Source: Cristatella mucedo (Eukaryota > Bryozoa > Phylactolaemata > Cristatellidae). From it: 64,000 nucleotides of DNA. The DNA is taken from NCBI GenBank assembly GCA_009760855.2, contig WPIO01000001.1, positions 2,350,501-2,414,500 on the forward strand, given 5' to 3'. The translations under genes and the position numbers were made by a program. This document shows, one piece after another, positions 2,973 to 47,440 of this stretch. Numbering within the stretch: the first letter of the stretch is position 1; every line of letters starts with the position of its first letter. The notes below the pieces were generated by a model. The model ran no database searches. It was not told the DNA's origin and saw only the letters and a list, made by a program, of their open reading frames with translations.

Positions 2973-3711
2973 TGTGACTCTGCAAGTGTGCACGCCCTTG
3001 CAGGAAGACGTGCACGCAACAAACATTTGTTCCCTATCCACGTTTGGCTTAACCTTGAAGACAAGGTACTGTCACTTCATCACGACCTACTATATACGGT
3101 TTAGTCTTTTAGTAGACCCCCTTTTGCTTAGTGGAAGCACGACTGATGTCTGACACGACTTTTTTACCATAGCATAGCAATAAATCAGCCACTGAATGAC
3201 TTTCCACTATCACCAGCTATCTGTTGACAGTGATTACTACAGCAGCTAGCAGTCTGCAGGTTGTAATGATTATACTGTGCTTCTCCTTTTGTCAGCAGCT
3301 ACCGAATTTGATCAAACCATTGGCAGGCACACCAAATAAACTATAGTGCAAGTTCATTTTATCAGCATCGATCCATGTCGTCTTGGTGGGGGTGAAAGGC
3401 TTTAGTTAACAATCGATTGCCTTAAGCCCACGAATTGCTTCGTGTTTCGTTGTGACCCATGCACGAAATCTAGAAATTTACCCTCCTGTCGTAGCAGCTT
3501 CGTTGTGGCAACAATGGTGATTACAACTAGCACCTACTGGATTAAAAGCAAAACAAAAATCTAACGAAATCAGATAAGTGCAGTGGAAATGCGAGCACGG
3601 CTGCACACTGCTGTTTCACTCAAGAAAGATTCGAGCTTTTTTACAATATCTAGTCCTCATCTCACTCGCTGTAGAGCTTTAGTCCACACAACTGACGTAG
3701 CTACCTTCATG
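2973..3711. other. Unassigned intergenic DNA
   Basis: No repeat family or coding signal recognised. Ends where the LINE-B 3' repeat (GTAATGTAATG) begins. Confidence 0.5.
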
Positions 3712-4215
3712 TAATGTAATGAATCTCCGTCAGTAACTTCACAAATACTAAGTGGATGTTACTTCGGGAGTTCTGTAGCCAACAGAGTTAATCTCACGCA
3801 ACAAAGAGAAAGTGGGAAGCATAGCAGAGTCAGGAGAATAGTTGAGGTATTGAGTGGCATGGCAGTAGCAGCTCAAGACCACTGAAAAGGATGTGCCATA
3901 GTCGGCAGCAGGAGAGTAGCTGTCTTTGTGTAAGAATCATGGAAGCGAGTTCCACAGTCTACCTGTAGAGCTAAAGCTTCTGTCACCAAAGATCTTTAAG
4001 CCGGGAATGAACAGCTAATTTATTGTTCATATAGTACATGAGGGCCCGGGAGGCTAAAACTGGGGGAACAGTTCTGCTAGGTATGGAGGAGCCAAGCCTT
4101 TGCGTGCCTTGCGGGTCACTGTAAGAACTTTTGCAAACCAGCCTTGCAGCCATATTCATAGCCATTCGCAGTGGCATAGTTGCTTTCATGACTGGGCGTT
4201 TCAATACTCCAGCTG
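3712..4215 (-). mobile_element. LINE-B 3' fragment
   Basis: Starts with the inverted 3' terminal pentamer repeat GTAATGTAATG, followed by blocks shared with the copies at 18240, 36565 and 49497 (GTGGGAAGCATAGCAGAGTC, GGACCGCTGAAAAGGATG-like, GCCATAGTCGGCAGCAGGAG). At about 4135-4200 it still matches the 49497-51140 copy (AGCCTTG-AGCCATATTCATAG, GGCATAGTTGCTTTC). The reading frame of the RT C-terminal region is broken by many indels. Confidence 0.8.
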
Positions 4216-4399
4216 CTTCTCGTCCTATCAACAAAGCTCTCATGAGTACCGCGATTAATGCAAAAAGCCACAGGAAATACTTGAGTCGGAAGATGCCACG
4301 GCGCAATGCGGCAAACCACCATCTGCTTACGCCCGAGAACGCGTCGCTAAGCTCCCAGTGCGGGGCGTCGTCGCTGCAAGAAACCTCACTGGAGTCAGA

Positions 4400-5932
4400 T
4401 GCAAATCACTTGCGATTCTCTTGGGAAAAAACTATTTTTTGCCAAGCGGGTTGACAAGGAACGTACCCGCCACGCGTCGCTAGCGGCGTCGGGAAGACCC
4501 ACCAGGTGGCAAGCGGCGCAAAAGCCAGCGTACGGATGGATAGTGGCGGGAAAATCCGCGGCTGACGAACAGACTCGCCAGGCGGCCCGCCGGCCGGAAG
4601 ACCCGCATAGCGATCAGCGGCGGACAACGGGATGCCGGCAGAAGTCGTCGAACACGGCATCAAAGCCTTGAAGCAATAAGGGGTCCGTACCTTATCGCTG
4701 CACTGGGGCAGCTCTCGGCTTAGCCGCGATGGGAGCCCTTGCCTTAGTGGGGTCAACTAGGGCGCCTAGTACAGACCTCCCAGCTCCTGATCCACCTTCA
4801 GCTCAGGTTAGAATGGAGCTGTATGCAGGCGATGCGGTTAGGAGATGGACTAATGTGCTTGCCTTAGCGGGTTCGACTAGGACAACTAGTACACGTCCGG
4901 CACCTGGTCCACCCGCTAAAGTTAGAATTGTAACCGGGTTCCAGCGGTCAAAGGCTAATTCCCGCCAAACCCCGCCATCCTCCGGCCACGCTGCCGCTCG
5001 CCATGCCGCCGAGCTAGGGTAAGACGAGCGGCCGTCAGGTTTAACATCTTTATAACGCAGGCGCCAACAACAACAGGTGAACTAAACAAGTCTACAGGGA
5101 GGGTCCTATACACAATACACTACGTGGGCGCAAGACGACGCAGCAAGCGCGAACAAACGTGTTAGTTGGGCTCAGTCGGCTTCTGCAGTCCTGTCGTTGT
5201 ACCGACTCCGAATCCAGCAGTACGAGCGTACGCCGTCCAAAACCCGGCTGGCTGAGTAACTGCTGGCTAGTCTGAGTCGGCAACTACCACAGTCGTAAAC
5301 TTCCACCGAAAGACGCCAACACACGGGGGTCACGAACATGCTACGCGGGGAAAGCGGAATAAAAACAAGTCAACAACGAGCGAGCTATCCAGCTCCGCTC
5401 GGGCCTTGGGTACTAGTTCCCTTGCGTGCGTGGCAGCATCGCCGGAGCACGCCTGCACGAATCCAGGTGCATAACTCGGCGAGACCGGGAGCCTCCAACA
5501 CCACGACTTACTTGGCCAACTTCCCGTACCCAAGAGCCCCGGCGACCTCACGTCACCGCATACATCCGGCCATACCATAGGGTCCGACCCCGGCCTAGCC
5601 GGTGACCCTAACCCTCACCATAGCCGTCCGATGCCAAACGAACCCAGCCTGGGTACAGAATGAAGCCTGGTGCAGACGATGCGGTCAGGATGTGCACCGA
5701 CTAATGGGCTGAAGTAGAAATAGCAGCTACACGCGAGGTCAGGAGTTGAGAGGAGAGAGAATATAATGATGGGATGACTGACAGAGCTAAGAGCTGCAGC
5801 GTGGTAGTCGATGCGAGACTACGCTGCGAGAGCACGAGAGACGAACCTCCGGCGACGAACAGCTAAGTGCAACTTACACCGCTCAGTTGTGTTCTGCCGG
5901 CTACTCAGTTAGCTGCTCGTATCTTGGGATGT
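4400..5932. other. GC-rich, CpG-rich block with internal duplications
   Basis: Noticeably richer in G+C and CpG than the flanks. It contains ORFs up to 116 codons on both strands, but none has a recognisable domain and long frames are cheap at this composition. It could be the body of a decayed LTR element whose LTR candidate starts at 5933, or a CpG island. An imperfect hairpin (GCAGCG...TAGTC / GACTACGCTGC) lies near 5796-5836. Confidence 0.4.
4735..4930. repeat. Two diverged tandem copies, third copy near 5672
   Basis: CTTGCCTTAGTGGGGTCAAC followed by CTAG-GTAC at about 4739-4775 is repeated as CTTGCCTTAGCGGGTTCGAC, CTAG-GTAC at about 4859-4895. The linker GATGCGGTTAGGAGATGGAC near 4830 has a third relative (GATGCGGTCAGGATGTGCAC) near 5679. 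The period is about 120 bp. Confidence 0.6.
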
Positions 5933-5982
5933 TGTAGCGGCCCGCCTTCGGGGTTGGGACAATCGCTAGCGACGCGCGCGTA

Positions 5983-6134
5983 GGATAGTTTATTACACGC
6001 GGGCTTCGGGCGTTCGTGCAGTTAACTCCGTCGGTCCGGTGCGCGCCGCGTAAACTCACAGGTTAGTGTATTATACTCGGGCTTCGGGAGTTCTCACGCA
6101 GTTAATTCCGTCGGTCCGGTGCGCGCCGCGTAAA
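5983..6134. repeat. Two-copy direct repeat, ~78-bp period
   Basis: Copies at 5983-6054 and 6061-6134 share GGGCTTCGGG, GCAGTTAA-TCCGTCGG and GGTCCGGTGCGCGCCGCGTA almost exactly. The placement upstream of a TATA box is like the enhancer duplications of LTR U3 regions. Confidence 0.85.
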
Positions 6135-6225
6135 GCGCTTGAGCCGGCGCGCAACCACTACTAACAAGCCCACGATAAGCTGTCGCTTTCGGCGCCCAGC
6201 TGTGGCCGCTTGTGTTTTAACCACA

Positions 6226-6259
6226 CTGCAGCGCTGCACTACACAGTGCAGCGCTGCAG
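6226..6259. repeat. Perfect hairpin, 15-bp stem, 4-nt loop
   Basis: CTGCAGCGCTGCACT at 6226-6240, loop ACAC, and its exact reverse complement at 6245-6259. The stem itself contains the palindrome GCAGCGCTGC. Confidence 0.9.
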
Positions 6260-6826
6260 AGAGCCGGGGCACGACACGAGCTCGCTGCTCGGTTACAATT
6301 CTAATAGGCCCGTGCCCTTAGTGTAGACCAGTCTGTTTGACAGCAATCAGCTGTCAAACTTACAGCATTCAGTGCCGTTGTGTGAATGCCAGCGTGCAAT
6401 TGACTATTAAATGAGTAGTGCTTTTTATAACGTTAAATTAAACATTATCGCACAACCCGTTCCCAATCGATATATTTCAGGGGGCCTTAGTCGACATTTT
6501 GGTGGTCACAGCTTAGCTGGTGAGGCTTTCAAGCGATTGCCCCCATCCGTATAAAAAATGTTCAGTTCATAGTTATAGAGCAGTGATTTTATTTAATTGA
6601 TGACACTGCCCCTGATCGCTGTACGAGTGGGCCGTGACACTCGATGTGGTAAGCAGCCCGGACGTGCTATTAGTGTTTGTTTTGACAAGGGAGTCGGGGG
6701 ACTCCGGTGGGCGAGACGGGCGAGGAGAGTCGTGCTTCGCCCTGCTACGTGTGGAGATGGAATAAACTGGTGGTGTTGCTCGTCGGCCGGTGTCCTGTGC
6801 CGCTTGCGACCATAATTCAGACTACA

Positions 6827-7152
6827 AGAGCGGCTATATGTAGCAGCAGCTTCCAACACAGTTCAAATCGCTTAGAAGAAGGAGAAGGAGACGGATCAAT
6901 TAGCTATGGAGAAGTCAGAGTCGGAGAGTTGCTGTCCGATTTTTTAAAGGCGCACCAGGGCAGATGTTTTAAGGCGTGAGCGGCACCGAAGAACGTGGCC
7001 GCCCTATGAAAGTGCCGTTGGCGAGTAATGGCGACCTCGGGCGAGAAAGCCTGCCGGCCCTCATCCATCCATCCATGAGTCGGCGCGGCTTCTTACCTGA
7101 TCACCGTGTCTCACACGCTGCCCCCTTTGCCGGCGACGGATCCTCAAGGCCT
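6827..7152. other. Unassigned, purine-rich start
   Basis: Has an AAGAAGGAGAAGGAG purine run near 6870. If 5933-6826 is a 5' LTR, this would be its internal start, but I cannot identify a primer-binding site. Confidence 0.35.
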
Positions 7153-7262
7153 TATATTACTCACCATTCAATTGCATTTCCTTTGCAGCAAATGTAAAGC
7201 GCCAAGAGAGAGACTGAGTTCTCTGAGGGCGCTTGTATCAAGTGCATCATTATTGTTATTGC
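7153..7262 (+). mobile_element. LINE-A 3' tail fragment
   Basis: Contains the conserved pre-tail block (TACTCACCATTCAATTGC, TTTGCAGCAAATGTAAA), then the stem-loop GCGCC (7199-7203) ... GGCGC (7228-7232) with inner AGAGA/TCTCT arms, and ends in a TTATTGTTATT tract. It is heavily 5' truncated. Confidence 0.85.
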
Positions 7263-8059
7263 TCGATCTGCTCAATTTCGAGCCAGCCATTATCACTCGG
7301 CTCCGACGGCTCCTGATGACCAGTTCGCAAGCACACTCCCTCCGAGGCGGTTGGGCCAGGGCTTTGTGGTGGCAGAGGTAGACCGCTCGGGCACCTGGGT
7401 ACGTGGACAGTCGACGCCCGCCGATGGCCACGGTACGCATACTGAATTGTGCTGTTGTCCGTTTGTTAGGCTGTCCGAGAGGCCACCCTGCTTCAGGTGC
7501 ATGCTCCTATTCACCAGATCGCGTTTGTATGGAGTGGTACCATTGAATGAGAAACAATTTAACAGAGTAGAGTAGGAAGGAATTCGCATAGATTGAATAA
7601 AAATCTAATTGCAATCAACAATTCCCTTCCCGTTGGCCACGGCCGTCGATATTTTTACCTGCTCGGCCATCCACTCTGAGCAGGCGCCATTCTGCAGGGT
7701 GCCTGAAGTCCAGCCACGTGGTTGCCAGAGCAAGACGTTGTTGCAGGATTGGCTCACGGAGGTGAACTATTCAGTTAGCTGCTTCAAAATCAAGCGTAGA
7801 TACGATCTGTCATACGCACCCCCCCCCCGATCGTCAGGAGCCCAATCTTTTCACTCCTTGCCAAAATGCGACTGGCCACACTGGCTCATGCGATTGCTGC
7901 ACCTGTGTGCTTGAACGGGATTTTGCGGGGCTCACTCCTGGCTTGCCGCCGGCACTGATACCTCAAACACAGAGCCTCGACCAGGAATTGACATGGCTCC
8001 GTCGCTTCGGTACCTACTTTCCTGCATGCGCCGGTAAACGAGGCTGCGACTGTTAACGG
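7263..8059. other. Unassigned intergenic DNA
   Basis: Short overlapping ORFs only (up to 101 codons), no domain seen. A C9 run sits near 7820. Confidence 0.45.
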
Positions 8060-8240
8060 CTGGTATAGGCGTAAGATCTCAGCCTAGGGCTAAGGTGCTC
8101 GTTCTCTACGGCCTAGGTCATTGGTTCGAGTCCGGCGATGAGTGATCTTTTCTTTAACCACTGCTAGGAGTAACGATTGACCCATTGAGGCTCTCTAGCC
8201 GCTAGACAAAGGTGGTTAAAGTTAAATCGGTGAATCTGTA
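8060..8240 (+). mobile_element. tRNA-derived SINE, old copy
   Basis: Has a B-box-like GGTTCGAGTCC near 8125 preceded by an A-box-like GGCTAAGGTGCTC, then a SINE-1-like body with GAGTGATC-TTT and a degenerate gene-regulation-free tail. It is too degenerate in the stems to be a functional tRNA gene. Confidence 0.6.
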
Positions 8241-10030
8241 ACCTTTAGAAGCCTTCGACCAATCCAAAGACCCGGGGGTTTCTGCGAGCACGGGCGCCTA
8301 CGTTGACTCCGGGCCCGAGCTGCCCAGAATCCCCAGAAGGCTTGACTGACAGGCAGAACCATGCTCAACTTAAGCCCACTCACTCACTTTATCCTCGGCC
8401 GTCGTCGTCGTCAATTGACGAAGCGCCTGAGGGATAGCTAGCGAATGAGGGATAACTGACCATCGGAGAAATGTCGAGCGAGCTGTTCAGGCTTGCATGA
8501 GTGCGGTGCTCGCTGAGCCCAAATGTGCGCCAAACGTAGTTCCGTAGCGCTGCGACAGCGACGAAAAGCACGGGCCACGCCGCCGCCCTCCTTGAGCTAG
8601 CCTCGTACTGGCAATAGAGTCGCAGTGGTCATCAGCATGGTCACCAGCACAGAAAGAACCAGTTGAACCTCATCCTGGCTTCGGCGGCTTTTTGATGGCG
8701 CTGTCAAAGTGGTGCAACCCGGATCCGGTCCGGCCCAGATCAATCCTGTGCCGCTTGTAGTAGTGCAGTGTCGCTGCCCGGTGACCGAAGTCGAGGCTGG
8801 CCCACAGACTGGCGGGAGAGCCCACCGACTGGCGGGCCAGCTAGAGCCAACATCGTGCCGTGTTGAGGCTTGTCATTCCGGGCCAATCGGTGTGTCCACG
8901 GAGCACTCCTAAATGTGCTTCCGGTCCCTGCTACGAGAGGCCTCTCCGCCCCAGAGTAACTGGAGGCAAGATGTATGTATTGCCTCTGAGCGGGAGACTT
9001 TTTCTGCTTCATCAGCAGCTACTGTTGGCTGATCTTGGAAATAATTTGAGCCGGTGAAATCCAAGTTTGAGTTTCTTCACCCAAAATCATTCTGCATCAC
9101 ACAGGATGAGTTTCTTCTTGGTGGTATAGCGGGCAACTAACGTTGCTACGGCGGACGTCGTCGTCGATACCAGGAGTGACGGAGCGGTTGAACACGGCTT
9201 TTCAGTGGCCTTAAATCTCCGACGCCAGCATCTGAGCTGAAGTTGCGTGGTCTCGCGTCCGTTGTAGTAAGACAAGCGCTGCGACCTCTACTCTGGCCAA
9301 CAAAGGCTTCTGCGGCTGAATACATTGCATCAATAATTCAACCGCACCATTTTATTATGTATATCATATGTGTATAATTTGTTTGTACAGCGCTCTAAGA
9401 TGGCCAACTCACTGCTCGGGCGCTTGTAACACGCCGCAGCGATTGAGCTCGGTAATCATAGGCGCGAGCCCCTTATACCGCTTTGCCAATCCAGCTAGGT
9501 GCAAGTGAATTTGCGGCTAACTAAATTGTATCTACTCATCAACCAATGTAGCTTCTAGAGTGAGTCGGTCCGATATTTGGTACCCTCGTCACTTTCAATT
9601 CGTTTATATTGTGACCTGTGAGCTTTGTACGGTATTATTCAGATGATGCAGCAATAAAGAGTTTCATGTCAACAACATTAGAGACAATAATGTGTCTAGT
9701 TGCATTCGCTAGTTAATTTTTGCACTTGCTAGCGAAAATTGAACATCGAATTTTGCGCAGAGTTACGAAACAGTAAGCGGTTGTCTTTAAATCGGATCTG
9801 TATTTCACTATATACTTAAAAAATAGGAAAATATCTTCCAAGGATAGGAAATTTCGGGGTTATCGTTCAATCTTCGATGCGTGGCTTGCTACTACTGCCT
9901 GATTTTGGCTTAGGATTCTAGTGCGATCGCGATAGAGATATTTAGCGGTTCAGTATTTTTTGGTTAGGGTTGGTGGGCAGGGGACGCTGCAGCCGGATGC
10001 CCTGCAGCTATATATAATTGTAAATTCAAT
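8241..10030. other. Unassigned intergenic DNA
   Basis: No element or gene recognised. 8400-9300 is moderately CpG-rich; 9350-10000 is AT-rich. Open frames are at most 90 codons. Confidence 0.45.
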
Positions 10031-22838: not shown

Positions 22839-23726
22839 GTGATTGCCAGGCACAAACTGAGCTTTCACTTCTATGCAGGTGAAACTCTTTTGTACTTTTG
22901 CTTTTATCTCTCCCAGCTCTTCAGCATGTCAAATTCCTTACATACACTTGCTGCATCTATTTATTACATCCGCACATGGATGGCAGACTACTTTCTTATA
23001 TTGAATGACGAACAACACAAATTACTAGTTTTGAGCAAATTGACAACCGATTTCGGAAATTGAAAAACCTAAAGCTCAAAATTGGCTCTGTCGCCATATA
23101 TCCTGTTTTATCTGTACGAAATCTAGATGCCCTGCTCCAAAGTGATCTTTCATTAGACGACCATATAAGCTCAGCAGTCAGGTCTGCCTTCTTTCAGCTA
23201 CACAAAAGCCGAAAGGCAGGCTAGCTTAGATAGGGATACTACATTCCAATTGGTCCACGCTTTCGCGACATTCCATCTCGAATTCTGCAACTCACTGTTT
23301 GTTGGTCTCATGATATGTGCAATCGGAGGCTTACAGTTGGTGTACAACTCTTCAGCTAGGCTCGTCAGTCATAAACATCGCAGTATCCCACATCACAGTG
23401 CTTCTCGCCGACCAGCACTGGCTCGCAATCGAGCGGCGTATCGAATTCAAGGTGTTGTCACTTTTGGCTCCAGCCTATCAATCATTACTATTTCCCCACC
23501 AGGCAAAGAATCGAACCCGAATCGCTTGGCCAAAGAATCTAACTCGAATCGCTTGGATTACCTCGTACGAACCCCAACATCTTTGGCGGACATGCCTTCA
23601 GTTCTTGTGCTCCTAAAGCATAGAATTCACTACCGACGCACGTCGCAACGTTCCCTTACGAAATATAAAAAGAAGCTGACAACTCACCTGTTCATTACAG
23701 CATTTTTTGGGTTTTGTGATTCATCC
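22839..23726 (+). mobile_element. LINE-A copy, 5' part, interrupted by an LTR element
   Basis: Broken RT region. FHFYAGETLLYFCF corresponds to the catalytic YADDTQLYLSF block with the Asp pair lost, followed by WMADYFLILND, SVRNLDALLQSDLSLDDHIS and FATFHLEFCNSLFVGL. The C-terminal end (KYKKKLTTHLFITAFFG) reaches 23705, and the 3' UTR starts GTGATTCATCC. There it is cut by the LTR element and resumes after 25796. Multiple frameshifts and stops. Confidence 0.85.
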
Positions 23727-24074
23727 TGTCGTTCGGTTCGCACAGCAGAGAGCCAGCCAATGAACAACGCCAACAGTTTATTGCACGAAGCATGGCTCCA
23801 TTTGCCCCATTCTTCCACCCGACTCTCTCCTCTCCCCGACTCCTGCTGTCCCCTGGTCAACCCCGATGATTCATTTAGGAGGACCACAACTGTGAGCCGG
23901 CCGAACCTGATGGTGAATCCACCATTTTTTCCCCAGCAGGTGACTGCCGGTCTCCACGCCACATCAAAGGTGGACCACAGCTGTGCACTGGCCCCTATTG
24001 GTGCTGCTCCCAAAAGCTGTTCACCAGCGGTTTAGCAGAGGAGCAGTACCGGCCTGCATACAACCCAACTATGC
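23727..24074 (-). repeat. Left LTR (3' LTR of the minus-strand element)
   Basis: About 348 bp. Shares with the right LTR, in order: TCGTTCGGTTCGCACAGCAG, CTCTCCTCTCC-like CT-rich block, GACCCCGATGA, AGGAGGACCACA, TGAGCCGGCCGA, TGATGGTGAATCCAC and TTTAGCAGAGGAGCAGTACC. The inner edge near 24074 is placed by alignment with ACCCAATTGCA of the right LTR. Confidence 0.85.
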
Positions 24075-24408
24075 CCCCTCACACGCTCCGAGTAGCCACA
24101 CAAGTAGCTGCGATGTACAGGGCAGCAACGAGCGAACCTATCGTCTACAAATGATACAATTTAGACACCACATCTGCGGCATAGCAGCTAAAATTAATAG
24201 CTGACCCCACAGGCAAGCTGGCTACCTTACGGCTGCTCAAAGAAGCCGCGCTGGTACACGGCCTTTTGCGACCAGCCGGCAACGTGAGCCACCAGCCATC
24301 GTCGCCGAGCTAATGTCCACAGCCACCGTTTTGCGGACCTCGGCCTCCGTCGCTTCAGCCGATTTTGCCACCACTGCTTCTACGGCCTGCACAGCTTCTC
24401 CGTCCTTC

Positions 24409-24972
24409 TCAGCCTCTCCAACCTTGCGCAGTCTCTCCGGCCTTCACAGTCTCTCTGCCCCGAGCAGACTCTCCGCGCTGCACAGACTCGCCGGCCTGTG
24501 CAGACTCTTCAGTCTGCACATACTCTCCGGCCTGCAGCGCGTCGCAGCCCACCGGCTGGTCGCAAGCCAACGTCACATTCATGGCTTTCGCTGCATCGCA
24601 GACCATTGCTTCTTTGGCAGACACCGCCGACTCTAGCTCGGACGCCGCCGACTCTAGCTCGGACGCCGCCGACTCTAGCTCGGACGCCGCCGACTCTCGC
24701 TCGGATGCCGCCGACTCTCGCTCGGATGCCGCCGACTCTCGCTCGGATGCCGCCGACTCTCGCTCGGATGCCGCCGACTCTCGCTCGGATGCCGCCGACT
24801 CTCGCTCGGATGCCGCTGACTCTCGCTCGGATGCCGCCGACTTTCTCACGGACGCTGGCGACTCGCTCGCGGGCGCCGGCGCCTTTCTAGCGGACGTCAC
24901 CGCTTCTCCGCGCGCCTCAGCCACAACGCTGACCGTTGCCTCACAAAACGCCGATGCTTCGTGGAACATCAT
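24409..24972 (-). CDS. Repeat-coding frame inside the LTR element (187 codons)
   Basis: Minus-strand frame starting MMFHEASAFCEATVSV. Residues ~45-120 are about ten heptads of the type ESAASER, a charged, alanine-rich pattern that could form a coiled coil. A linker then leads to hexapeptides with a GE core (AGESVQ, RGESAR, GRETVK, AGETAQ). The frame stops at 24409, but the hexad pattern continues in a neighbouring frame (VGEAEK, DGEAVQ), so a one-base shift has probably truncated it. The + strand is also open (205 codons, DAADSRS repeats); I prefer minus because the Gag-like frame and LTR polarity are minus. Confidence 0.35.
   Translation of the reverse strand: MMFHEASAFCEATVSVVAEARGEAVTSARKAPAPASESPASVRKSAASERESAASERESAASERESAASERESAASERESAASERESAASERESAASELESAASELESAASELESAVSAKEAMVCDAAKAMNVTLACDQPVGCDALQAGEYVQTEESAQAGESVQRGESARGRETVKAGETAQGWRG
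24626..24835. repeat. 21-bp minisatellite, 10 units
   Basis: Unit GCCGACTCTNGCTCGGANGCC. The first three units carry TAG-C variants (CTCTAGCTCGGAC), the later ones CTCTCGCTCGGAT, with degenerate units beyond 24836. The length keeps frame (7 codons). Confidence 0.95.
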
Positions 24973-25068
24973 TGCAGCCTAACTAATCGTCACCGCTTTG
25001 AGAGCCGTTGCCTGCCGTCACCGCGTGGCAAACTGGCCAACGTCATTCACCTTGCACACTGTCAGTAA

Positions 25069-25404
25069 TCACTGCTGCTGCTTCCGGTCGCTCCTGTCGG
25101 CCCTCTCAGTCTGACCAGCTTTTACCCGATCAGCGTGCAGCAATCTCGCTCTACCGGCCGGCGAGGTGAATGCCCTCACTAGGGCCTCATGAAGCTTGGC
25201 AAAATCGTCTTGAACTGCCTGCAGGAGCCTCGAGGCAAACGTGAAGGCCCCGCCTTGCGTCGCAAGGAACAAAGACAAGTGACACTCACTCGGTTTTTAG
25301 CCACTTTTCTAGATCTCCCTCTCGAAGTTCAGCAGCCAGCCAACGAAATCTCCGAAGCCAGCGAAGCTTTGGGATGCTGCACAGGACATCTCCGAGGGCG
25401 TCAT
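25069..25404 (-). pseudogene. Decayed Gag-like (Ty3/Gypsy) reading frame
   Basis: The first ATG (25404, MTPSEMSCAASQSFAG) lies 24 bp inside the right LTR, where gag normally starts. GDFVGWLLNFE resembles the conserved GDFexWLxxFE opening of Gypsy Gag capsid regions. After two in-frame stops (TAG, TAA, near 25304-25315) the same frame continues LSLFLATQGGAFTFASRLL, LQAVQDDFAKLHEALVRAF and SPAGRARLLHADR, again Gag-like (hydrophobic helix, DDFxxLxxAL, then a basic segment). It ends at a TGA near 25069. Assignment is by pattern, not by database match. Confidence 0.5.
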
Positions 25405-25427
25405 CGGCTCCTTCACCAGAAACAGCT

Positions 25428-25796
25428 TGTCGTTCGGTTCGCACAGCAGATAGCCAGCCGATAAATGACACCGAGTGTTTCTTGCACGACGCGCGGAGTC
25501 GAAGATCGCACGGCTCCCTTCGACCCCTTCTACCACTCTCCTCTCCTCTCCTGGACTCTCTGTCTCCTGGTCGACCCCGATGACTCATCTAGGAGGACCA
25601 CAGCTGTGAGCCGGCCGACCCTGATGGTGAATCCACTATTTTTTCACCAGCGGGTTATCGGCACGTGTCCATGCCACGTCACAGGCGGACCGCAGCTGTG
25701 CACTGGCCCTTCTTGGTGATGCTCCCAACTGCTGTTCACCCACGGTTTAGCAGAGGAGCAGTACCGGCCTGCATAACATAATATAACCCAATTGCA
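25428..25796 (-). repeat. Right LTR (5' LTR of the minus-strand element)
   Basis: About 369 bp, longer than the left LTR because of small indels and an extra ACATAATAT near the outer edge. The two LTRs differ at many positions, so the insertion is old. Shared blocks are listed under the left LTR. Confidence 0.85.
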
Positions 25797-25930
25797 CATC
25801 CATCTTGTGCATGTACCTGCTTACACTATGCCTACCGCTTGCGGGCGTTACCGCTAATTCGTTAATCTTTCTATACAGCATCTGTAGTGTTCCCTGAGGG
25901 CGCTATAATAGTGTCCTATTATTATATTAC
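25797..25930 (+). mobile_element. LINE-A 3' tail, displaced part of the 22839 copy
   Basis: Opens with the target-site copy CATCC and continues LINE-A 3' UTR-like sequence to CCCTGAGGGCGCTATAATAG and a TTATTATATTA tract. It completes the LINE cut at 23726. Confidence 0.75.
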
Positions 25931-27448
25931 CTAGGCGCCCGCTGGCTAAATGGGCTCTCTAACTCCATCCTTATCTCCTCCGCTCCCTCACCTCCCTACT
26001 TTCATGGATACCTTCCTTACTAATAACGGTAATGCGTTTGCATAGCAACCTTAGAGAACTGAACCCCTTACCGCTGCACCTACTGAATCCTGGGACAGCT
26101 GATCCGGTTGCTATAGCGGCCATAACACACGAGGCAACGGCTGCGAGTCGCGCTTTGTCCGGCGGCCGGTCAGCGTGGTGACTTGGAACTAGCGCGTCGT
26201 TTATAGTGAGTCAGTCTAAATATGTTGATCTAATTATATTCAAGGAAATTGAGGTAATTTCAAATTCACATTTATGTCGTTTATGGTTTGGTTTTTCTAT
26301 GGTCGAACTCGGGTGAGTTGGCCTGCTTTAGCTTGGTTTGACGTCCGGTGGTGTGAGACTTATCGTGGAAATGTTCTGCTTGTGCTGTGTAAGAGTATGA
26401 TTAAGTTGAACTATTCCTAAGATCTTTATTTATCAAGTATTGCATTTTTATGCTACGCATAGCATTTCTCAGTGCTGTCGCTTGGTTTTAGCTTGGGGTT
26501 CTCCCTCTACCTGCAAATGAAAGTAAACATATGTTGTCGCTTATTCATATCTCTTCAAAAAAGAATTTGTTTACCTTAACCATTAGGAGTATATGATTGA
26601 TTGTATTTACATATATTTCCAACCTTCTCACGTGCATATTGAAACTAAGTAAATAGACTTTTTTGATCAAGAGCTGGCTGTGTCATCACGCGACCTCGGT
26701 CATCACATGATTGACTCTCCTTGACTTGACCTTGGTCGTGGTGAGCGACTAAACGACCGGGTTAAATTCTGTCTCAGGGCACCGAAACTGCGTTCATAGT
26801 GGCCATCATTATTCCAAACATTATCAGCGAGTTGCCATGCCATTTAACGAGTCATGACGTTCGCTGCAGACATCCATGCTTTTGAAAAAGGAAGCTATAG
26901 CGACTCAGTAATTCAGCTCTGGTTGCGACCGGTCTAGAGTTGGTATTCTATGACGGGTCGATTGCATCGCCACGAAGAGGTGTCCCACTGCAATACTTAA
27001 TGACTATGGAGTTGGCACCTTGCGAGCGAACTCATTCTGGCACAAGTAACACGTACCTTTGCAATTTTTACCTCCATTTCAACGATTCAACAAGCCCACA
27101 AGTATTATGAATTACCAAGTTACATCCGCGAATGCATTTTCTCACCTCTACTCCTACAAGCGGTGTGCATGCATGCGTTCAAGAATGGACACCATATTTG
27201 ACGAGGCACGGCAGTGAGTTACACAGTCGCTCTCACACGGCTAGAGGTAAAAGCAGAAACACGCAAAGAAACACAAACTAAAGACCCATGCGGGACCCGG
27301 TCCAGATTTTGCCTTTACTATCCCATCATTGAACGACGCACGCGAGCTTGCTATTTGTATTGTAAGAGTCGCTCAAGCTGGGTCTAAACACGAGAAGACA
27401 GCCCTACTACATCCTACTCAGTGTGCAGCAAGTCATTTAAAATCGATT
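25931..27448. other. Unassigned intergenic DNA
   Basis: AT-leaning sequence with no ORF over 60 codons and no repeat recognised; the emptiest stretch of the window for coding signal. Confidence 0.55.
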
Positions 27449-27620
27449 TGTGAGCCGCGATAGCACACTAGGTAACGTTGTTGCTCCTCGCGTCCTCAGT
27501 CCCGAAGTCGTGGGTTCGCATCTTGCGGCGGAAGCGTTCCTTTATTACCGCTGGAAGAGGTAGCGGTAGCGTTTATGGATCCTCTGCTGCTATACAAAAG
27601 TTACTGTTAAATTAGCTATA
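27449..27620 (+). mobile_element. SINE-1, tRNA-derived
   Basis: Starts GAGCCGCGATAGCACACTAGG, with B box GTGGGTTCGCATC, then CTTTATTACCGCTGG, GGTAGCGGTAGCG, and TACAAAAGTTACTGTTAAAT ahead of an AT-rich tail that runs to about 27715. Confidence 0.85.
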
Positions 27621-27715
27621 TAGTATATATATAAATCTTATATGTATATACTGTATAGCTATATATTACAAATTACATATTATATATTTATATATTACAC
27701 ATCTCCGTATTTTCC

Positions 27716-30660
27716 CAGGCCGTTGACTTCGACTGCCGCGAATTGCCCTCGTATGTATGTTCAAGATTGGTTGATAAGATGCGGTTGCACTTTTACCACA
27801 GCATATTATTATTTTTTTATCCTAGCTGATTAAACAGCCTCTTTTTGTATAGCGACAGAAGAGCCTTTACGGCTATCACCACCGCTTGCAGTGGCGATAA
27901 AGGATCGCCCACTGCAGGAATCGAACCCACGACCTCGGGACCAAGGTCGTGAAAGCAACCACCTTACCTAGTGTGCCATCACGGCTCACCAAATATTATA
28001 TTGCTACGCAAGAAAAAATAGGGATCTTCTCCTACCAGCTTTTTTGTAAGTGTAGCAGACAATCTTACATTGCTCTATTGTCTCAGGCAATTGCCGTCGA
28101 TTGCCATGCATTGTTCAAGGTTGAACGCAAAAACTGACAGTATGTGCGCCCACAGTGAGCATTGTGTGGTAGGATAATTACAAATTCAAACAGCCGGATT
28201 CCAGCAAATTTGAAACAGCCTGCAGTAGAGGCCGGGCCATTGCCGTCGATTGCCGCCAATTGCCTTTGATTGTGCCTTTTTCGATTTTTTAAAAAGATGT
28301 GGCTGCCCTTTTAATGGACTGTAATGCATTACGCAAGTAAAGTTAGAGGTTCTCTCAGCAACTGTCTGTCCATTTGTAACTGACCGTTATGGATTGGCGT
28401 ATTTACCGGGCCATGCCATCGATGGTCGTGCATTGCCCACGATTGAATGCGCACAATGGGTGAAAGATAGGCAGGCGCGCACAGGTACACATTACGTGGA
28501 ATTAGAATTGCAGGTTATTGCAGCCAATCTTGTCAATTTCCGCGGATTTTGCTATCGGCTCCAACCAATGCTGTGGATTGCCGTGCATTGCTGACAGTTA
28601 ACGAGCGTAGCATCTTGAAAATGCCACAGTTTTACTTTGGACGGAATGTTATATGTAATGACAATTGAGAGTTCCGTGCTGCCAATTTCAGTCAATTTTC
28701 CGGAAACGGTATTGACCCTGGACATTGCTTTCAATTGCCATTCATTGGTCGCTATTGTACGTTCGCGATTGGTTAAAAGGATTTAATTGCACTTTCAACA
28801 CAGCGGGTTGTGACAGGTAAGATATTTTTTATCGTGGCCCAGTCAGTTTCCAGTAATTTGCGATGGATTATAACGCATTGCCGGATTTTCCCGGGCCATT
28901 GCCGTTGATTGCCATACATTGCACAAGATTTAACGGTCAGACATGGTTAAAAGGGTTAAAGGTATGTTCGCACGGGGTAAGATGTTACTTGGAATGAGAA
29001 TTGGAGCTTGGTGCAGCCAATTTCTCGTCGATTTGCCACGAATTTCGGTATTAGTTCCGTACATTGCTGTCGATTGCCGTGCATTGTTGACGATTAACGT
29101 GCAAAATAGCTTGACAGTCCTACGATTTCACTTTTAGCACAAAGAAATGAATGTGAATTGTGATGACATTCGGCACTTCGTGCAGCCAGTTTGGGTCGAC
29201 TTTCTACGGATTGTAGGGGATAGCTACTTCGAGCCGAGCCGCTGCCGTAGATTGTCGTGCATTGACCGAGATTGTGCGAGCGACATAGCTTAAACTGATG
29301 TGGCTGACTTCAATCAGTGTGCATTGTAACATGCATTAAAAACTGAAGTATTGCGAAACCGAGTTCAGGGCATTTTGCATCAGATTGCTGTAGATAGAGG
29401 CATTAGCCCGGGCCATTGCAGTCAACTGCAGGGCATTTCTGCCTCGCGGTCAAGGCGGTTGTAGCAAAATTGTGCGATTACACAATAACCTAAAGTTAGA
29501 GCAACCTCCAATCACTATTAGAGCTTAAAGTTAACGCATTCTGGTCGTTTTGCGGAGGGTTGCTCTAGATCGACCTACTGGCCAGGGCAATTTTTGCAGC
29601 CGATTGCAGTGCATTGCTGCAGAATGGCCGAGACAATTAAAGTTGAGTTATGTGAGTACACAATAACTAAAAAATAGATCAGCCTGCAATCACAATTAGA
29701 GCTTTTAGTGAACGTGTTCTGGTCGCTGTGTGGCGGATTGTGGTATGGGACTGAGCCGTTGCAGTAGATTGCAATTCATTGAATGAGAGTGCGTCTACAC
29801 AACGGAGCGAAATTATGTGGGTGCACTTTTAACATATTCTAATCCTTTATGCAATGTCAATTAGAGCTTCGGGATGGCGATTTGAGTGCGATTTGCCGTG
29901 GAATAGAGTGGACTGTTGTAGTTTTTTCAGGTCATTTCAGGCGATTGCCGCCCATTGCCACAATGCGAGGATGCTCAATTTACGTTTATGTGCACACAAC
30001 ACGGGGCAATTTCATATTTAATAAAAACTGGAGCTTGGCGTAATCTATTTCGATTTTGTACGCGGCCGATACGGTTGATTGAGGTGGATTGCGACTTTGT
30101 CCCGGGCTACTTCGGTCGATTGCAGCACATTGCACGAGAACGGCCTTACCAATGCATGTGAAACTTTTAAGTGCAATTGTCGCAGAGTGTGCTGTCATAT
30201 GCAATCAAAAAAGGTGCTTTTCGAACAGGATTTCTATCGTTGCAACGTGGAATGCAGTGGATGGCGGTGGATAGCGGTGGGTTGTGGTATTGGCGTGGCC
30301 ACTGCAGTGTTATTTCAATTGACTTGAGGGGAACGAGTGAGCGGAATCACGCGAAATATTTTGGGTACATTATGCGTGTAGCGTACATTGATATTACAAA
30401 CTTTATGGAGCTGTTCACAGCTGATCTATGGTGGATTTATCGGGAATTAGAATGGATCGCGGTCGATTGCAATGTATATCGGTACTGGCCGGGCTTCAAA
30501 GCTCATTTGCACAAGTTCGCGTAGCGACATGAAATTTAGCGGACAGATATATTCGAACATGTGTTACAATATCGTTGCAAAATTTGAGTTCGGCACGCCT
30601 ACGTCCGGTCGTTGTTAGCCAAATTAGATTGGATTTCTGTGGATTGCTCTAGCGAGCATT
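27716..30660 (+). repeat. Diverged ~170-bp satellite array (about 16 monomers)
   Basis: Each monomer opens with a GGGCCATTGCCGTCGATTGC-like block followed by CGTGCATTG. Openings fall at about 27716, 28085, 28234, 28408, 28564, 28720, 28893, 29058, 29236, 29410, 29582, 29753, 29930, 30104, 30294 and 30487. Spacing is 149-193 bp, mostly 165-178. Later in each unit are AATTGCACTTTTA, CAATTAGAGCTT and CAGCCAATTT-GTCGATTTG-like blocks. Monomers are far from identical, most diverged toward the right end. The monomer length is in the range of nucleosome-sized satellites. Confidence 0.8.
27822..27990 (-). mobile_element. SINE-1 inserted into the satellite
   Basis: Minus-strand copy: read in reverse, GGTGAGCCGTGATGGCACAC, B-box GTGGGTTCGATTCCTGC, GCAGTGGGCGATCC, AAAAAGAGGCTGTTTAATCA. 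It is flanked by ATATTAT on both sides (about 27804 and 27994), a plausible target duplication, and it splits the first satellite monomer. Confidence 0.9.
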
Positions 30661-31189: not shown

Positions 31190-31445
31190 TTTGTAAAGTG
31201 AGCTCAAACCCTATACGGCTCGCGGTGCGCATGCACTAGCCAACAACAGGCTTCATCTCGCATCAGAGCAGAGATAAAGTGAGAAGCGGAAGCTACTGTC
31301 AGAAGGTAATTTATGTAGTAAGTAAAATGGAGGTAGCAGCTCAGAACGACTGGAAAAGACTTCTCATAAACGACAGCAGGAGATTCGTTGCGTAAGAATT
31401 GTACAAGTGAGCTCCACAGTGTGGTAACTGCAGAGCCAAAGCTGG
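31190..31445 (-). mobile_element. LINE-B 3' fragment
   Basis: Contains the LINE-B signature blocks (TAGCAGCTCAGAACGACTGG, CGACAGCAGGAGA, GTTGCGTAAGAATTGT, AGCTCCACAG). The minus frame retains LWSSLVQFLRNES, a decayed PRLWNSLPQFLRND motif. Abuts a SINE-1 at 31446. Confidence 0.8.
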
Positions 31446-31615
31446 TGAGCCGTGATGACACACTAGATGAGGCGGTTGCTTTTCACGAACTCGGTCCTGA
31501 GGTGCTGAGTTCGAATCCTGCGGTGGGTTGTCCTGCATTGCCGTTTCAAGCGGTGGTGATAGCCGTTAAGGCTCTTCTGTCGCTACACAAAAAAGGCTGT
31601 TAAATCTGCTCATAC
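31446..31615 (+). mobile_element. SINE-1, tRNA-derived
   Basis: Head GTGAGCCGTGATGACACACT, GAGGCGGTTGCTTTTCACGA, B box GAGTTCGAATCC, body GGTGATAGCCGTTAAGGCTC and tail AAAAAAGGCTGTTAAATC then CTTTTTT. One of the better-preserved copies. Confidence 0.9.
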
Positions 31616-32089
31616 TTTTTTCTGTCGCCAATCGTCTTCTGCAGCTAGCCACTGCGATGGCCATCGTGCGGCATGGCGCCACGTCATACATTGCAAGACA
31701 TCTTTTCTCGCATCCTTTATACTTGATGTCTGCTTACTTCGTAAGCCTTAGCTATGCTCTCTAGAAAAGAATTAAGCTGCTAAAACCTCTGCCAGGGTTC
31801 AACGCAAGCCCAAACGGAAACGTGTAGTGAGACCCGCTGTTTGGTAGGCCTCATCTTTTGATCGCATTTATTGACCCGATCTTCTTGCGCACATCCGCCT
31901 CCGCTTAACCTAAAATCGAGGAGATTTGTGTGTACTCAATCGAAGTGCCTTTTCATGAGATAGATATGCATGCTCGGTAAGGATAGGTATGACAGGTAGG
32001 TAGGTAGGTAAGGATAGGTATGATAGGTAGGTATGATAGGTAAGAATAGGTATGACGCCACCAGTAATGCTTTTCATATACTACGGTTG
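31616..32089. other. Unassigned, with GGTA/GATA microsatellite
   Basis: Nothing coding. 31979-32055 is a TAGGTAGG/ATAGGTATGA tract. Confidence 0.6.
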
Positions 32090-38600: not shown

Positions 38601-38824
38601 TGCGGTATGAGCCAGCCATTTGGCAGTCCTTCTTAGCTTTCCAAGCAATAGCTATTGCTTGCTCTGAGCTACAGACATTCAGGTGTCACGCCAGCATGTT
38701 AAAATTGATTCTCGGCGACTGCTGACTAGTATGCTATTTTCCTCTGTGACGTCTAGGCGTATAGCGTATTATAAATGGTAAAACTGCTTGGTTTGTGGAC
38801 GGCTGCTGCTAAGCCCTTCAAAAA

Positions 38825-38985
38825 ATATTAGCTGATTTAGCATCCTATTTTTTGTAGCGATATAAGACCATTTACGGCTAGCACCATCGCTGCAGCTGCA
38901 ATAAAAAATCGCCCACAGCAGGACTTAAACCCACGACCACGGGACTGAGGTCGTGAAAAGGATCCGCCTTATCTAGTGTGCCAGT
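38825..38985 (-). mobile_element. SINE-1, tRNA-derived
   Basis: Reverse copy: tail TAGCTGATTTAGCATCC, GACCATTTACGGCTAGCACC, inverted B box GGACTTAAACCCACGACC, GGTCGTGAAAAGGATCCGCC, TCTAGTGTGCCAGTATG. Confidence 0.8.
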
Positions 38986-41759
38986 ATGTACGCAGTATTC
39001 ATTAGTGTGCGCCATCAGACTCTCGGGCTCGCAGGCATCAAGACATCAAGATAGCAGATACGCAGCCACCACCATAGCAGAAGATTGCAGACTAAATCTC
39101 CGGCCTGTTTCACTGAGAGTATGGTATTAGAGTCGCTTCACTGTCACTAAACATATAATTTCACAAATACAGTGCTAATTCTCTCAACATGGCAGCAGAG
39201 ATGCCGCCACTGTCTCTTGAGATTATGGTATCAGGCAATTGGCCACACAGAGAACACAGCAACAGCTGCTGGTGTTGTCTGTGTGAGCACGGCACGACAG
39301 ATTTTGTAAGTATTGGATCGAGCATGTTACCAGCGCTGCGCGAGACGCTAACAGCACGGTGCATTTCCATTCCACTCAGTATCTCTGCACACCTATCCTT
39401 TGTTCTCCGTGTGCATTTTTTCGTATCAGTGCATGATTCAGTCCATCTTACTTACCAGGAGTCGGACTAACCAATGTCCCTAAGTATCTTTCTGTGCGAT
39501 TCGGCTTGCTTTTCCAAGCAGGATTCCCATCGCATCCTTAACATCTGGTAGTTGTTTCTCTTGCAGCGAGCTGCCAGGCGCCTGAATAGAGATTTGGTTC
39601 TCTTAGCTCGCTAAGCAAATGAAACCACGTGACCGGGGATGCCGCAATTTTCATTGAGGTCATTGTACGATATATAGGTAGCTACGTTAACAAAGGGCAA
39701 GGTACGCAAGATGCAAAAGCGTCACTGAGCGCATAGAATCAGCATGACAGGAAAAAACATGAGCCGCGGTACCAGAGGCGCATCCACTGGCACAGTTCAT
39801 AGAAACACAAATGGGTCCGCTGTCACTTAGGGCGTGGTACGAGAGATCAAGAACGATCGCCGCACAGAGCTTGGTAGCAGATACCAAGGCACTGCCGATT
39901 GAAGTATCAGACTAGAGATGCGTCTACTGTTACTACCAACATTGTAATAATAATAATATTGATAATAATACACGCTATAGCAGACAGACATGGAGCCATT
40001 TTTGCACGCACAATTGCACAGAGCATATTGTTCAAGAGAGGTAGCCACTATCTACGAGAGAACGATGCAAAAATCAGTTCGATAGTCACGGAGAATAATT
40101 CACCAGATTTGAAACAACGGCCGCTGCGATCACTGTGCAACAGATGCTTACACTTCTGTTGATTCCGTCGTTCTAGAGGTGCAAGCCTGGGAACTGTGAG
40201 GATTAAACCGGACAGGTAGTCACTGTGATAAATATTCAAGATTATCGTTTAAAAATGTAATTCAATTTCGTTGATAACAGGGCGCGGTATATATAGACTG
40301 TGTTACTTACAGCGAGTTCAGGAAAAGTAGCCAATGTCACTGAGAGAGCATGACCCTACAGATGCGGCCGCTATCACTAAGAGCCGCGAATCCGCGATGC
40401 AGCCATTTCTACTGAGAGCCAAGAACCCGAGACACTGCCACCGATGCATTGAGCAATGTTCTATCTGATGCCAAGTCGAACAGTAATTGCTTTTAGCGTG
40501 CCATCGTTATATCGGCAGTTCATCTAAAGATGACATAAGTGAAGACCCAAACCGGCCGTTCGAACTAGACATGTCACACACTGGCAATGACGGCACGTTT
40601 TTACAGAGAAAAAAGTGAAATCTCTGCTGCTTTGCACCGGTGAGTATCATTAACTGTAACTGAAAGCTGTGCCAGTAACTGAAATTCAACGACAGCTTTC
40701 TTCCCAGCCGCAATCAACGATTCAGTCAAGATCAAATATCACTTCTCGCACGCTTACCTGCAGCAAGGATATGCAATGCCTCACTAGCATTCGTATCACC
40801 TTTAAGTCCTTGATCAGCTACGATCTGATCAACAATTACAGCGATAACTGGTCCTTTTATGTTGCCCAACATAAAAGGGATGCAATATATACCGAATCGC
40901 TTTGTCTTATATCAGTCAGTCGTTAGTTGTACAGCTACAGAAATACCCACATAATGATGCCGTAACAAGGTTGAAACGGACGAGATAGCATTTGGTCACT
41001 ATCGAGCTGCCATCTCAGTACCGTATTTTACCATGCAATCCTCCTTTCCCAACATTTGGGGTCAGATAATGGGGAGATAGCTTAAACATGTAAATTTTCT
41101 TATGTGCTTTAGTATTGCGCTACACAACGTACCCACTTTCAATGCCACCCAACTAATATTAATTGACAATCAAAGTGTGTGAGATATTCTTGTTTTTCAA
41201 GAAGTGTGGCATTTTAAATTCAATGAATGGGACGTAAAATGATGCAGTCTACAAAGAGAGTGACAACGACAGTGATGAAAACGGAATTTCCACCAAATTT
41301 CAAGCCTGGGATATGAACGAGAAAAGCGAAGAGTGTTTGAGCACCATTCCAGATGCAAAAGACAGTGATAGTGACATAAATAACTCTTATAAGTCTTGAT
41401 ATTGTTTAGTTCATTCAGTTATTGAATGAAAATATTTTTTTCAAAAAAATGTTATTAAAAACTTGGAGGCTTATACATTGGGGAGGGGTTGTAAATAGTA
41501 AAATACGGTATTCTGTTGCAGCTGCGGCAGCCGTCTCGTCAGCCCTGTGCCAGTCATTGAAAGCTCGTTACATTTGAATTCTACTTAAGTTTAATATATC
41601 ACATGATATCGGGTCTTGCGAATTACGGATTGCTACCGATGGCCGTCTTGGCAAAGTTTTCTCTTCCGCTTTCGCCCCAACTTTCGCTTTTAGTCCGAAC
41701 CACGTCGACCGGTGGAATTGGCGTGGCAGACGACGAACCATAATACTAGATGCTACTCG
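38986..41759. other. Unassigned intergenic DNA with a SINE-2-like tail
   Basis: No gene recognised; frames up to 93 codons. 39572-39630 carries a stem-loop GGCGCCTGAATAGAGATTTG / GGTTCTCTTAG like the SINE-2/LINE-A tail. An ATT-type microsatellite lies near 39940-39970. Confidence 0.5.
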
Positions 41760-43772: not shown

Positions 43773-43777
43773 AAACT

Positions 43778-44067
43778 TGTGGTTCGGCATACAGAACGCT
43801 GGCCTAGAACAATGCCAACGGTTTATTGCACAAGGCACGGAGCAGCAAGACGCACGACTGCCTTCGCCCCCTTCTCACACTCGAGTCCCCTCTCTCTTCC
43901 CCTCGGGCTGTCACTTGGCCGACCCCGATGGTGAATCCACCATCTGACTGTGGTTACCGGCCTGTCCAAACCACACCACAGGCGGACCACAGCTTTGCAC
44001 TGCCGGTGATGCTCCTGGCAGCTGTATACGAAAGGAGCTGTACCGGCCTGCATACACTCAGACCACA
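43778..44067 (-). mobile_element. Solo LTR of the 23727 element family
   Basis: 290 bp flanked by the exact 5-bp duplication AAACT (43773-43777 and 44068-44072). Ends TGTGG... and ...CCACA, i.e. TG...CA. Shares AACGGTTTATTGCAC, GACCCCGATGGTGAATCCAC, ACAGGCGGACCACAGCT and TACCGGCCTGCATACA with the LTRs at 23727 and 25428. The + orientation matches those LTRs, so the element is minus. No internal region remains. Confidence 0.9.
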
Positions 44068-44072
44068 AAACT

Positions 44073-44522
44073 GCCAAGACTGGCTGCAGAGTGTGAAAAC
44101 ATATAATTGATGAAAAGACGCGAGATTAGTGAGTTCGCGTCTATACGAGATGTCACCAGGAGGCCTCTACCAAGTGGCTGCCGGTCACCTTTTTGACAGC
44201 CGACGCACGCTCGCTGAGTACGAGCGGCATTCAAATCTCAGCGAAGCTCAAGCTGTGCTTCTTCTCGTGCATCGTGCAGCAGCTCAGCCTATTGAGCACC
44301 TCAATACGCTTGAGCACCTCGTCGGGGTCACCGGCGGAGGGGTGACAGATATCTGCAGCAACTGCTCTGATCTCCATGATCTCAAACAAATTACCATCAT
44401 GACGATGCTCTCTAATAGCTGCTCTGACAGCTGATCTCCGGGCAGCGACTGCCATCAGACTCATCGGTCTGACATTAAGCAGGGGAAGGGTTCCGCTGTT
44501 AATAATTCGGTGGCATAATACT
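44073..44522. other. Unassigned intergenic DNA
   Basis: Opposing frames of 101 (+) and 77 (-) codons both look protein-like but neither is recognisable. Confidence 0.4.
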
Positions 44523-44690
44523 GGCTGATTTGACGGCCTCTTTTTCGTACAGTGGCGGAAGAGCCTTTGCGGCTATCGCCACGGCTGGCAGCAGCGATAC
44601 AGGATCACCCACGGCAATATTCGAGTCCATGACGTCAAGACCAATGGCGGGAAAAGCAACCGCCTTACCTAGTTTGCCATCGCAGAATGA
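44523..44690 (-). mobile_element. SINE-1, tRNA-derived
   Basis: Reverse copy: GGCTGATTTGACGGCCTC, AGCCTTTGCGGCTATCGCC, GGATCACCCACGGCA, inverted B box TATTCGAGTCCATGACG, CAACCGCCTTACCTAGTTTG. Confidence 0.85.
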
Positions 44691-47130: not shown

Positions 47131-47440
47131 AGGTGAGCCGTGATGGTGGCACATTATGTAAGGCGGTCAGTTTACACGACCTCTGGCCCGAGGTCGTGGA
47201 ATCGAATCATCCCGCGGGCCATGTTAATAATAATAATAATACACTCGATAAAGCCCCCCCCCCCGCAGAGAACTCAGTGTCTTTCTGGGCGCTTTACATT
47301 TTCTGCAAAGGAAACGCGATCGAATAGTGAGTGGTATCGTACGATCCTTTATTGCCGCTGCAAGCAGTGGTGATAGCCATAGAGGCTCTTCTGTCGCTAT
47401 GCAAAAGATATTGTTCAATCAGCTAGTATTTTTTTTCAGC
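47131..47440 (+). mobile_element. SINE-1 split by a LINE-A tail
   Basis: Left half 47131-47223 (GTGAGCCGTGATGGTGGCAC to CCCGCGGGCC). Right half 47341-47440 (ATCCTTTATTGCCGCTGCAA, GGTGATAGCCATAGAGGCTC, TTCAATCAGCTAGTATTTTT). Joined, they follow the SINE-1 order with no loss. Confidence 0.9.
47224..47340 (-). mobile_element. LINE-A tail inserted into SINE-1
   Basis: Inverted ATT repeat, ACACTCGATAAAG, a C10 run replacing the 5' arm of the stem-loop, CAGAGAACTCAGTGTCTTTC, GGGCGCTTTACATTTTCTGC and AATAGTGAGTGGTATCG. Younger than its host SINE. Confidence 0.9.

Follow-up and report, generated by a model that had tools for sequence, protein, structure and literature searches.

The 64,000-nucleotide window of Cristatella mucedo DNA analyzed here (contig WPIO01000001.1; genome of 572 Mb) contains at positions 23722–25801 a long terminal repeat (LTR) element that is inserted in a long interspersed nuclear element (LINE). 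The two LTRs (23727–24071, inner edge ± ~3 bases, and 25428–25796) align from end to end, beyond the blocks that an earlier sequence-only reading of this DNA had recognized by eye. Among 348 ungapped columns, 296 are identical (85%; Kimura two-parameter distance 0.167), and the local alignment score of 426 compares with a maximum of 40 among 200 shuffles. The 5-base target duplication proposed by the same reading is present on both sides of the element (CATCC at 23722–23726 and 25797–25801). Nesting in a LINE is borne out by the joined flanks, whose alignment with a second LINE copy at 53.7–54.4 kb crosses the junction and extends 37 bases past it (score 401, versus 374 when only the left flank is used). 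The interrupted copy (23226–23721, plus strand) is 67.6% alike with 53919–54436 and seems to resume at 25802. Judged by eye, the LINE frames of the window are CR1/L2-like, and a scan of 60 window frames gave an RVT_1 match for one of them.

The element runs on the minus strand, and its true 5′ LTR is the window-right LTR, since this is the direction in which the AATAAA signal of the 3′ LTR (23777–23782), the capsid frame, and the purine tract (GAGGGGG) all read. The polypurine tract GTGAGGGGGCA (24072–24082) adjoins the window-left LTR, and other copies hold TCAAGGGGGCG at the same place. The leader just inside the 5′ LTR (AGCTGTTTC..., 25406–25427), in which AGCTA[T/C]TTC is conserved, is the probable primer-binding region. 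The sequence-only reading had assigned the opposite polarity, with a purine tract beside the downstream LTR and a Gag-like frame just inside the upstream LTR. Neither assignment held up. The longest purine runs in the last 100 plus-strand bases before the downstream LTR comprise only five bases (GAGGG, AGAAA), and the capsid frame lies on the inner side of the window-right LTR. We rejected the plus-strand reading, as the six plus-strand frames of the element give no Pfam match at E < 0.9, and the capsid frame and purine tract are found on the minus strand.

The interior of ~1.35 kb contains no long pol frame, as had been stated before. What remains of the gag-like frame is distributed over several pieces, all on the minus strand: an N-terminal piece (MTPSEM..., 25312–25404) that terminates at a stop, a stop-free capsid N-domain piece of 75 amino acids (25072–25296) with matches throughout the genome, the open part of the decayed open reading frame (ORF) with 189 amino acids and a SAASERE heptad array (24412–24978), and a decayed C-terminal part in the next frame (24240–24443). 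Both coding minisatellites are real. The 21-bp array (24624–24896) encodes the heptads, and the 18-bp array (24379–24536) is part of the repeat tail; its spacing of 18, 37, and 18 bases introduces a one-base shift. Because stops separate the N-terminal, capsid, and repeat pieces and one frameshift follows, the window copy is dead and degraded. Ends that by eye resemble the C-terminus of the window ORF (KTVAVD...GSRCRLVAKGR) occur in other copies.

Copies across the genome

A search with the window LTR returned 1,894 first-look candidates, the best of which were scored. The best-scored matches include 41 listed ones with 72–100% identity, the two window LTRs among them. None of 20 LTR places viewed with ~10 kb around them has a second such LTR in the same orientation, so that they resemble solo LTRs. 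About 3 kb from the LTR at one such place, L019, lies another kind of gag-only element (6680–8929), which belongs to subfamily B as defined below. Searching instead with the 75-residue capsid piece gave 582 candidates, of which 150 were scored; 24 of the 150 sit in frames of at least 400 amino acids.

We opened 14 copies, which fall into three subfamilies: A (the window copy, L029–L034, and L039), B (L019 and L038), and C (L035, L036, L037, and L040). Copies L029–L034 were selected for their long open frames. All three subfamilies have the same layout, with a capsid N-domain, a linker, and a variable alanine-rich repeat tail. In other copies the first LTR is followed by the AAGCTATTTC leader, the gag frame, the repeats, TCAAGGGGGCG, and the second LTR. 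Paired LTRs were found in 11 of the 14 (7/8 in A, 1/2 in B, 3/4 in C). The interiors of these paired copies measure 1.3–1.75 kb, or 3.5 kb in L036, which contains a nested LINE. By eye, 8 of the 11 are flanked by exact 5-base duplications (in L035 this requires that the 5′ LTR edge be set by two bases), two agree in four of five bases, and one shows none. An AATAAA in element orientation is present in all five subfamily-A LTRs tested. The suggestion that the window element stands for a gag-only, non-autonomous Gypsy family with a repeat tail is therefore supported, as many copies combine LTR, gag, repeats, and LTR with no pol seen.

Within the aligned segments, the two LTRs of a copy are identical to 85 (window), 88.8, 90.6, 94.3, 94.4, 94.9, 95.0, 95.1, 95.3, 97.8, and 99.3%. 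If this divergence tracks age, the family has moved over a long period and until recently without a pol of its own.

Judged by interior size, open frames, and an integrase map, pol was not seen between the LTRs in the 14 opened copies, whose interiors, that of L036 excepted, are too short to accommodate it. A same-strand integrase (PF00665) no more than 8 kb downstream was recorded for 0 of 150 subfamily-A matches and 2 of 115 matches of subfamilies B and C; for the places of two pol-bearing Gag sets the counts are 12/66 and 21/54 (Fisher p 2e-14 for 0/150 versus 21/54). These counts are lower bounds for every group, as the integrase map comprises 150 scored of 812 candidates. They include all 150 subfamily-A rows, 115 of 151 B and C rows (rows at subfamily-A places were excluded), 66 of 108 rows for the first pol-bearing set, and the first 54 of 151 rows for the second. 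The rows dropped from the first set are mostly short fragments, and since two of these places (C667 and C550) do have an integrase nearby, 12/66 is if anything too low. In both B/C exceptions the integrase belongs to a separate neighboring element, which starts only after the closing LTR of the gag-only element. With no pol seen, the gag-only element counts as a non-autonomous derivative of Gypsy and not as a complete Gypsy element. At L035, a subfamily-C gag-only element (868–2955) and an unrelated pol-bearing Gypsy element (2972–8250) lie head to tail, ~16 bases apart.

These data bear on a simple alternative, according to which the window copy is a single autonomous Gypsy element that lost pol by internal deletion and expanded its repeats later. 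The window copy does have LTRs and a gag remnant, and pol-bearing relatives exist. Yet the same capsid and repeat layout recurs without visible pol in 14 opened copies from three subfamilies, and the pol-bearing relatives belong to different families, which deviate by at least ~30% in the LTR and in ~60% of capsid residues. A normal pol was not seen in the other opened copies, and we consider the deletion scenario very improbable.

The gag-only protein and its descent

The six subfamily-A copies picked for long frames encode 401–481 amino acids from the start of the capsid to the stop. These six proteins and that of L039 consist of an N-terminal part with capsid and linker (164–166 residues), a tail of 102–184 residues with 41–46% alanine in variable AASATES-like heptads, and an end block of 109–145 residues. 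A CCHC motif is absent from all seven. The tail units of subfamilies B and C are different, AAAEL- and AAAPED-like.

Comparison of capsid profiles built from 26 gag-only and 7 pol-bearing sequences gave an hhalign probability of 97.9% (E 5e-13, columns 14–83). The best blastp match of each gag-only sequence to a pol-bearing Gag has an E value between 1e-13 and 0.009, and the best of one shuffled set reached 0.02. This homology to the Gag of integrase-bearing elements is limited to the capsid N-domain. The same pol-bearing Gags are linked (97.3%) to other Gags of the genome, and these reach the Pfam models PNMA and Retrotrans_gag, only below cut-off. The Ty3 capsid comprises an N- and a C-domain, and the packing of the latter is retrovirus-like (PMC6525542). 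We saw no counterpart of the C-domain in the gag-only protein. The capsid of L019 retains ~30 further residues beyond the N-domain, which may be a remnant of the C-domain that was lost. A scan of IMG/VR gave 13 pattern matches, none of which was confirmed.

Comparison of seven copies (three from A and two each from B and C) revealed ratios of nonsynonymous to synonymous substitution (dN/dS) of 0.25–0.38 for A–B, 0.42–0.51 for A–C, and 0.19–0.31 for B–C, at dS values of ~0.85–2.4. These ratios indicate that the amino acids of the gag-only protein are under long-term constraint between subfamilies. Between gag-only and pol-bearing Gags, dN/dS is 0.36–0.85 where dS is unsaturated. In hhalign comparisons, the subfamilies match one another (E 1e-19 to 1e-34) more closely than they match the pol-bearing Gags, and by eye the linker that follows the capsid (SPTVC.A..V.Q.A) is common to all three, as is the end block. 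Because of this mutual proximity and the common linker and end block, the sequences fit a single loss of pol before the subfamilies split.

A constrained ORF with a truncated Gag might also be expected from copies of a domesticated host capsid gene that no longer belong to a transposon. For the family as a whole we give this explanation almost no credence in view of the paired LTRs, the exact target duplications of 5 bases, the dispersal of at least 150 capsid matches, and LTR identities of 85–99%; an individual conserved locus devoid of LTRs might nevertheless be domesticated.

Shared ends and likely helpers

The sequence-only reading had called for a full-length partner with the same LTRs. 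Pol-bearing elements with related LTRs do exist in this genome, in the form of two Ty3/Gypsy families that we name P1 and P2. Their LTRs are not the same; at ~65–73% likeness to the gag-only LTRs, and with ~40% or less in the capsid, they mark different families. Both carry capsid and integrase, the latter ~2.8 kb downstream or in the same frame across P1 and P2. The P1 family (L061 type) was found at no fewer than 54 places with identities down to 61%. Its leader matches that of subfamily A in 25 of 26 bases, its purine-tract block is 82% alike over 62 bases, and LTR plus leader are ~65% alike over 269 bases. One P1 copy (on C22) has LTRs that are 99.3% identical over 291 bases and a GTTAG duplication. 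The P2 family (L060 type) is represented at C528 by one ORF, since the capsid and integrase rows, 938 codons apart, both report a frame of 1,248 amino acids. LTR plus leader of P2 are 68% alike with the window over 343 bases (69% over 334 bases for the C675 copy, E 9e-46), and the likeness to a young subfamily-A LTR is 73% over ~265 bases. The P2 leader is 97% alike with that of subfamily B over 33 bases.

The AGCTA[T/C]TTC leader occurs in all three gag-only subfamilies and in the pol-bearing relatives. In L035, by contrast, the unrelated Gypsy element carries a conventional TGGTAGCAGAG site at its LTR, so that possession of the AAGCTATTTC leader unites P1, P2, and the gag-only family in a single group. 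Adjacent to the 3′ LTR, the polypurine tract reads TCAAGGGGGCG in subfamily-A copies and TCAAGGGAGCG in P1 copies; it is weaker in subfamily C. Thus, P1 and P2 have the LTR, the AAGCTATTTC leader, and the capsid N-domain in common with the gag-only family, and P1 also the purine tract. They differ from it in the integrase and in a sequence after the N-domain that we read as C-domain-like, neither of which is present in the gag-only copies. From these sequence similarities, P1 and P2 are likely the helpers of the gag-only family.

A probable non-autonomous family with its own Gag

We consider it highly probable (about 0.88) that the window element belongs, as a degraded copy, to a large and old non-autonomous family derived from Ty3/Gypsy, whose one protein is a Gag made up of the capsid N-domain followed by a basic linker and an alanine-rich, variable tail. 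This reading builds on the layout, the duplications, the multicopy state, the capsid homology, and the common LTRs, leader, and purine tract observed in the family. The RNA of such an element would be packaged together with the reverse transcriptase and integrase of a helper and copied through the shared ends. Because its amino acids stayed constrained, the element's own Gag would still function, probably by joining the helper particle or by building one. The tail may grow and shrink via slippage or recombination. It takes the position at which one would expect the capsid C-domain and the nucleocapsid, and it may either replace these lost parts of Gag or be tolerated.

Several observations weigh against this reading. 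The copies are not uniform: a target duplication is not visible in L036, the 5′ LTR of L032 is almost wholly missing, an LTR pair was not seen in the stretches fetched for L037 and L038, and AATAAA is absent from the LTR of L019 in subfamily B. At the window locus, the right LINE flank taken alone scores 36, which is not significant against shuffles of up to 39. The absence of pol was judged from interior sizes, open frames, and the integrase map. The AAGCTATTTC leader is not the usual site for a tRNA 3′ end, as there is no TGG beside the LTR, and in two copies tested for self-priming the leader lacks complementarity to the LTR. Only sequence likeness links the family to P1 or P2, and it gives conflicting answers: the LTR and the capsid (dN 0.73–0.78 versus 1.02–1.08) point to P2, while the subfamily-A leader and purine tract point to P1; the purine tract of P2 was not seen. 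Pfam searches with the window pieces and natural ORFs returned no capsid model and only weak matches (e.g., GAGA_bind, E 7e-4, below cut-off), and searches of the PDB by sequence and by profile returned no solved capsid and nothing meaningful. The Gag assignment rests on relatives within one genome. Finally, the synonymous excess within subfamily A is weak (16 of 38 changes, p ~0.05, 345 sites; 22 of 47 changes, p 0.016, 498 sites), as it is within subfamily C (19 of 53 changes, p ~0.2), and one of five other frames used as controls, a reverse-strand frame with third positions in common, reaches 0.30 against 0.35 for the real frame. Most recent changes may have arisen after insertion.

The weak selection within subfamilies and the missing Pfam match would also be expected if the frame were incidental to repeat-rich, G+C-rich DNA, the family being non-coding and TRIM/LARD-like and the protein inert. 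Furthermore, the periods of both arrays are divisible by three, so that frames stay open easily. We regard this explanation as improbable, since 24 of 150 matches sit in frames of at least 400 amino acids (chance below 1e-4 each in random sequence, repeats not modeled), the capsid is homologous to the Gag of integrase-bearing elements, and dN/dS between subfamilies is 0.19–0.51.

We surmise only tentatively that the degraded, Gag-encoding family represented in the window is a long-lived satellite lineage that lost pol before the three subfamilies split and has persisted by using several helper families through shared ends. Such a lineage might have rebuilt its Gag by exchanging the C-domain and nucleocapsid for a self-expanding alanine-rich tail, which could serve oligomerization or RNA holding, or could enter and tax or restrain helper particles.

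Plant TR-GAG elements, as described in two reports, have two LTRs, a single Gag ORF, and no pol, and the same holds for the gag-only family (PMC8704663, PMC9784723). In the Arabidopsis case, the genome is reported to contain a similar element that is potentially autonomous, and the TR-GAG itself has been observed to transpose (PMC8704663, PMC9784723); the related elements here would be P1 and P2 with their capsid and integrase. By analogy, the gag-only family would work like the plant elements, as a Gypsy-derived, TR-GAG-like, non-autonomous family. In contrast to TR-GAG, which these texts describe in plants, it resides in an animal genome. The Arabidopsis TR-GAG Gag is reported there as full-length with 562 amino acids (PMC8704663), whereas the profile match of our family stops after the capsid N-domain. 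Variable repeat tails and three subfamilies separated by dS values of ~0.85–2.4 are further differences. A literature search on gag-only and non-autonomous LTR elements and MaLR returned no animal gag-only Gypsy family of such layout, which is not proof of absence. As far as searched, the combination of a truncated capsid with an expandable tail and this lineage depth is new.

Other non-autonomous LTR elements are more distant. The mammalian MaLR/THE1 elements are old, high-copy, and non-autonomous, with at most a gag-like ORF, and the gag-only family resembles them in age, copy number, non-autonomy, and LTRs. MaLR/THE1 elements derive from class III endogenous retroviruses, not Gypsy, and we know of no expanding coding minisatellite tail among them. 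LARD and TRIM elements are moved by relatives and are without coding capacity, unlike the gag-only family with open frames of 401–481 amino acids in six copies.

For plant gag-only elements it was long an open question whether they are mobile or merely supply Gag to others (PMC8704663). A large animal family that has likely helpers, a copy whose LTRs are nearly identical, and natural variation in the Gag tail makes it testable why a non-autonomous element retains Gag and how much Gag a particle requires.

Elsewhere in the window, a P1 solo LTR lies at 43776–44069 on the minus strand; it is 75–82% alike with P1 LTRs over ~277 bases and 94% alike with one of them over 125 bases. Rfam gave no match in the window at gathering thresholds. 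Related, tRNA-like repeats at 27819–27991, 48003–48178, 31443–31621, 38820–38986, 44517–44681, and 47342–47436 probably form a short interspersed nuclear element family, and ARAGORN predicts a tRNA-Lys within one of them (48003–48082). Inverted arms are present within 27447–27992, and a 15-bp array at 63505–63881 gives rise to a serine-rich frame of 214 amino acids.

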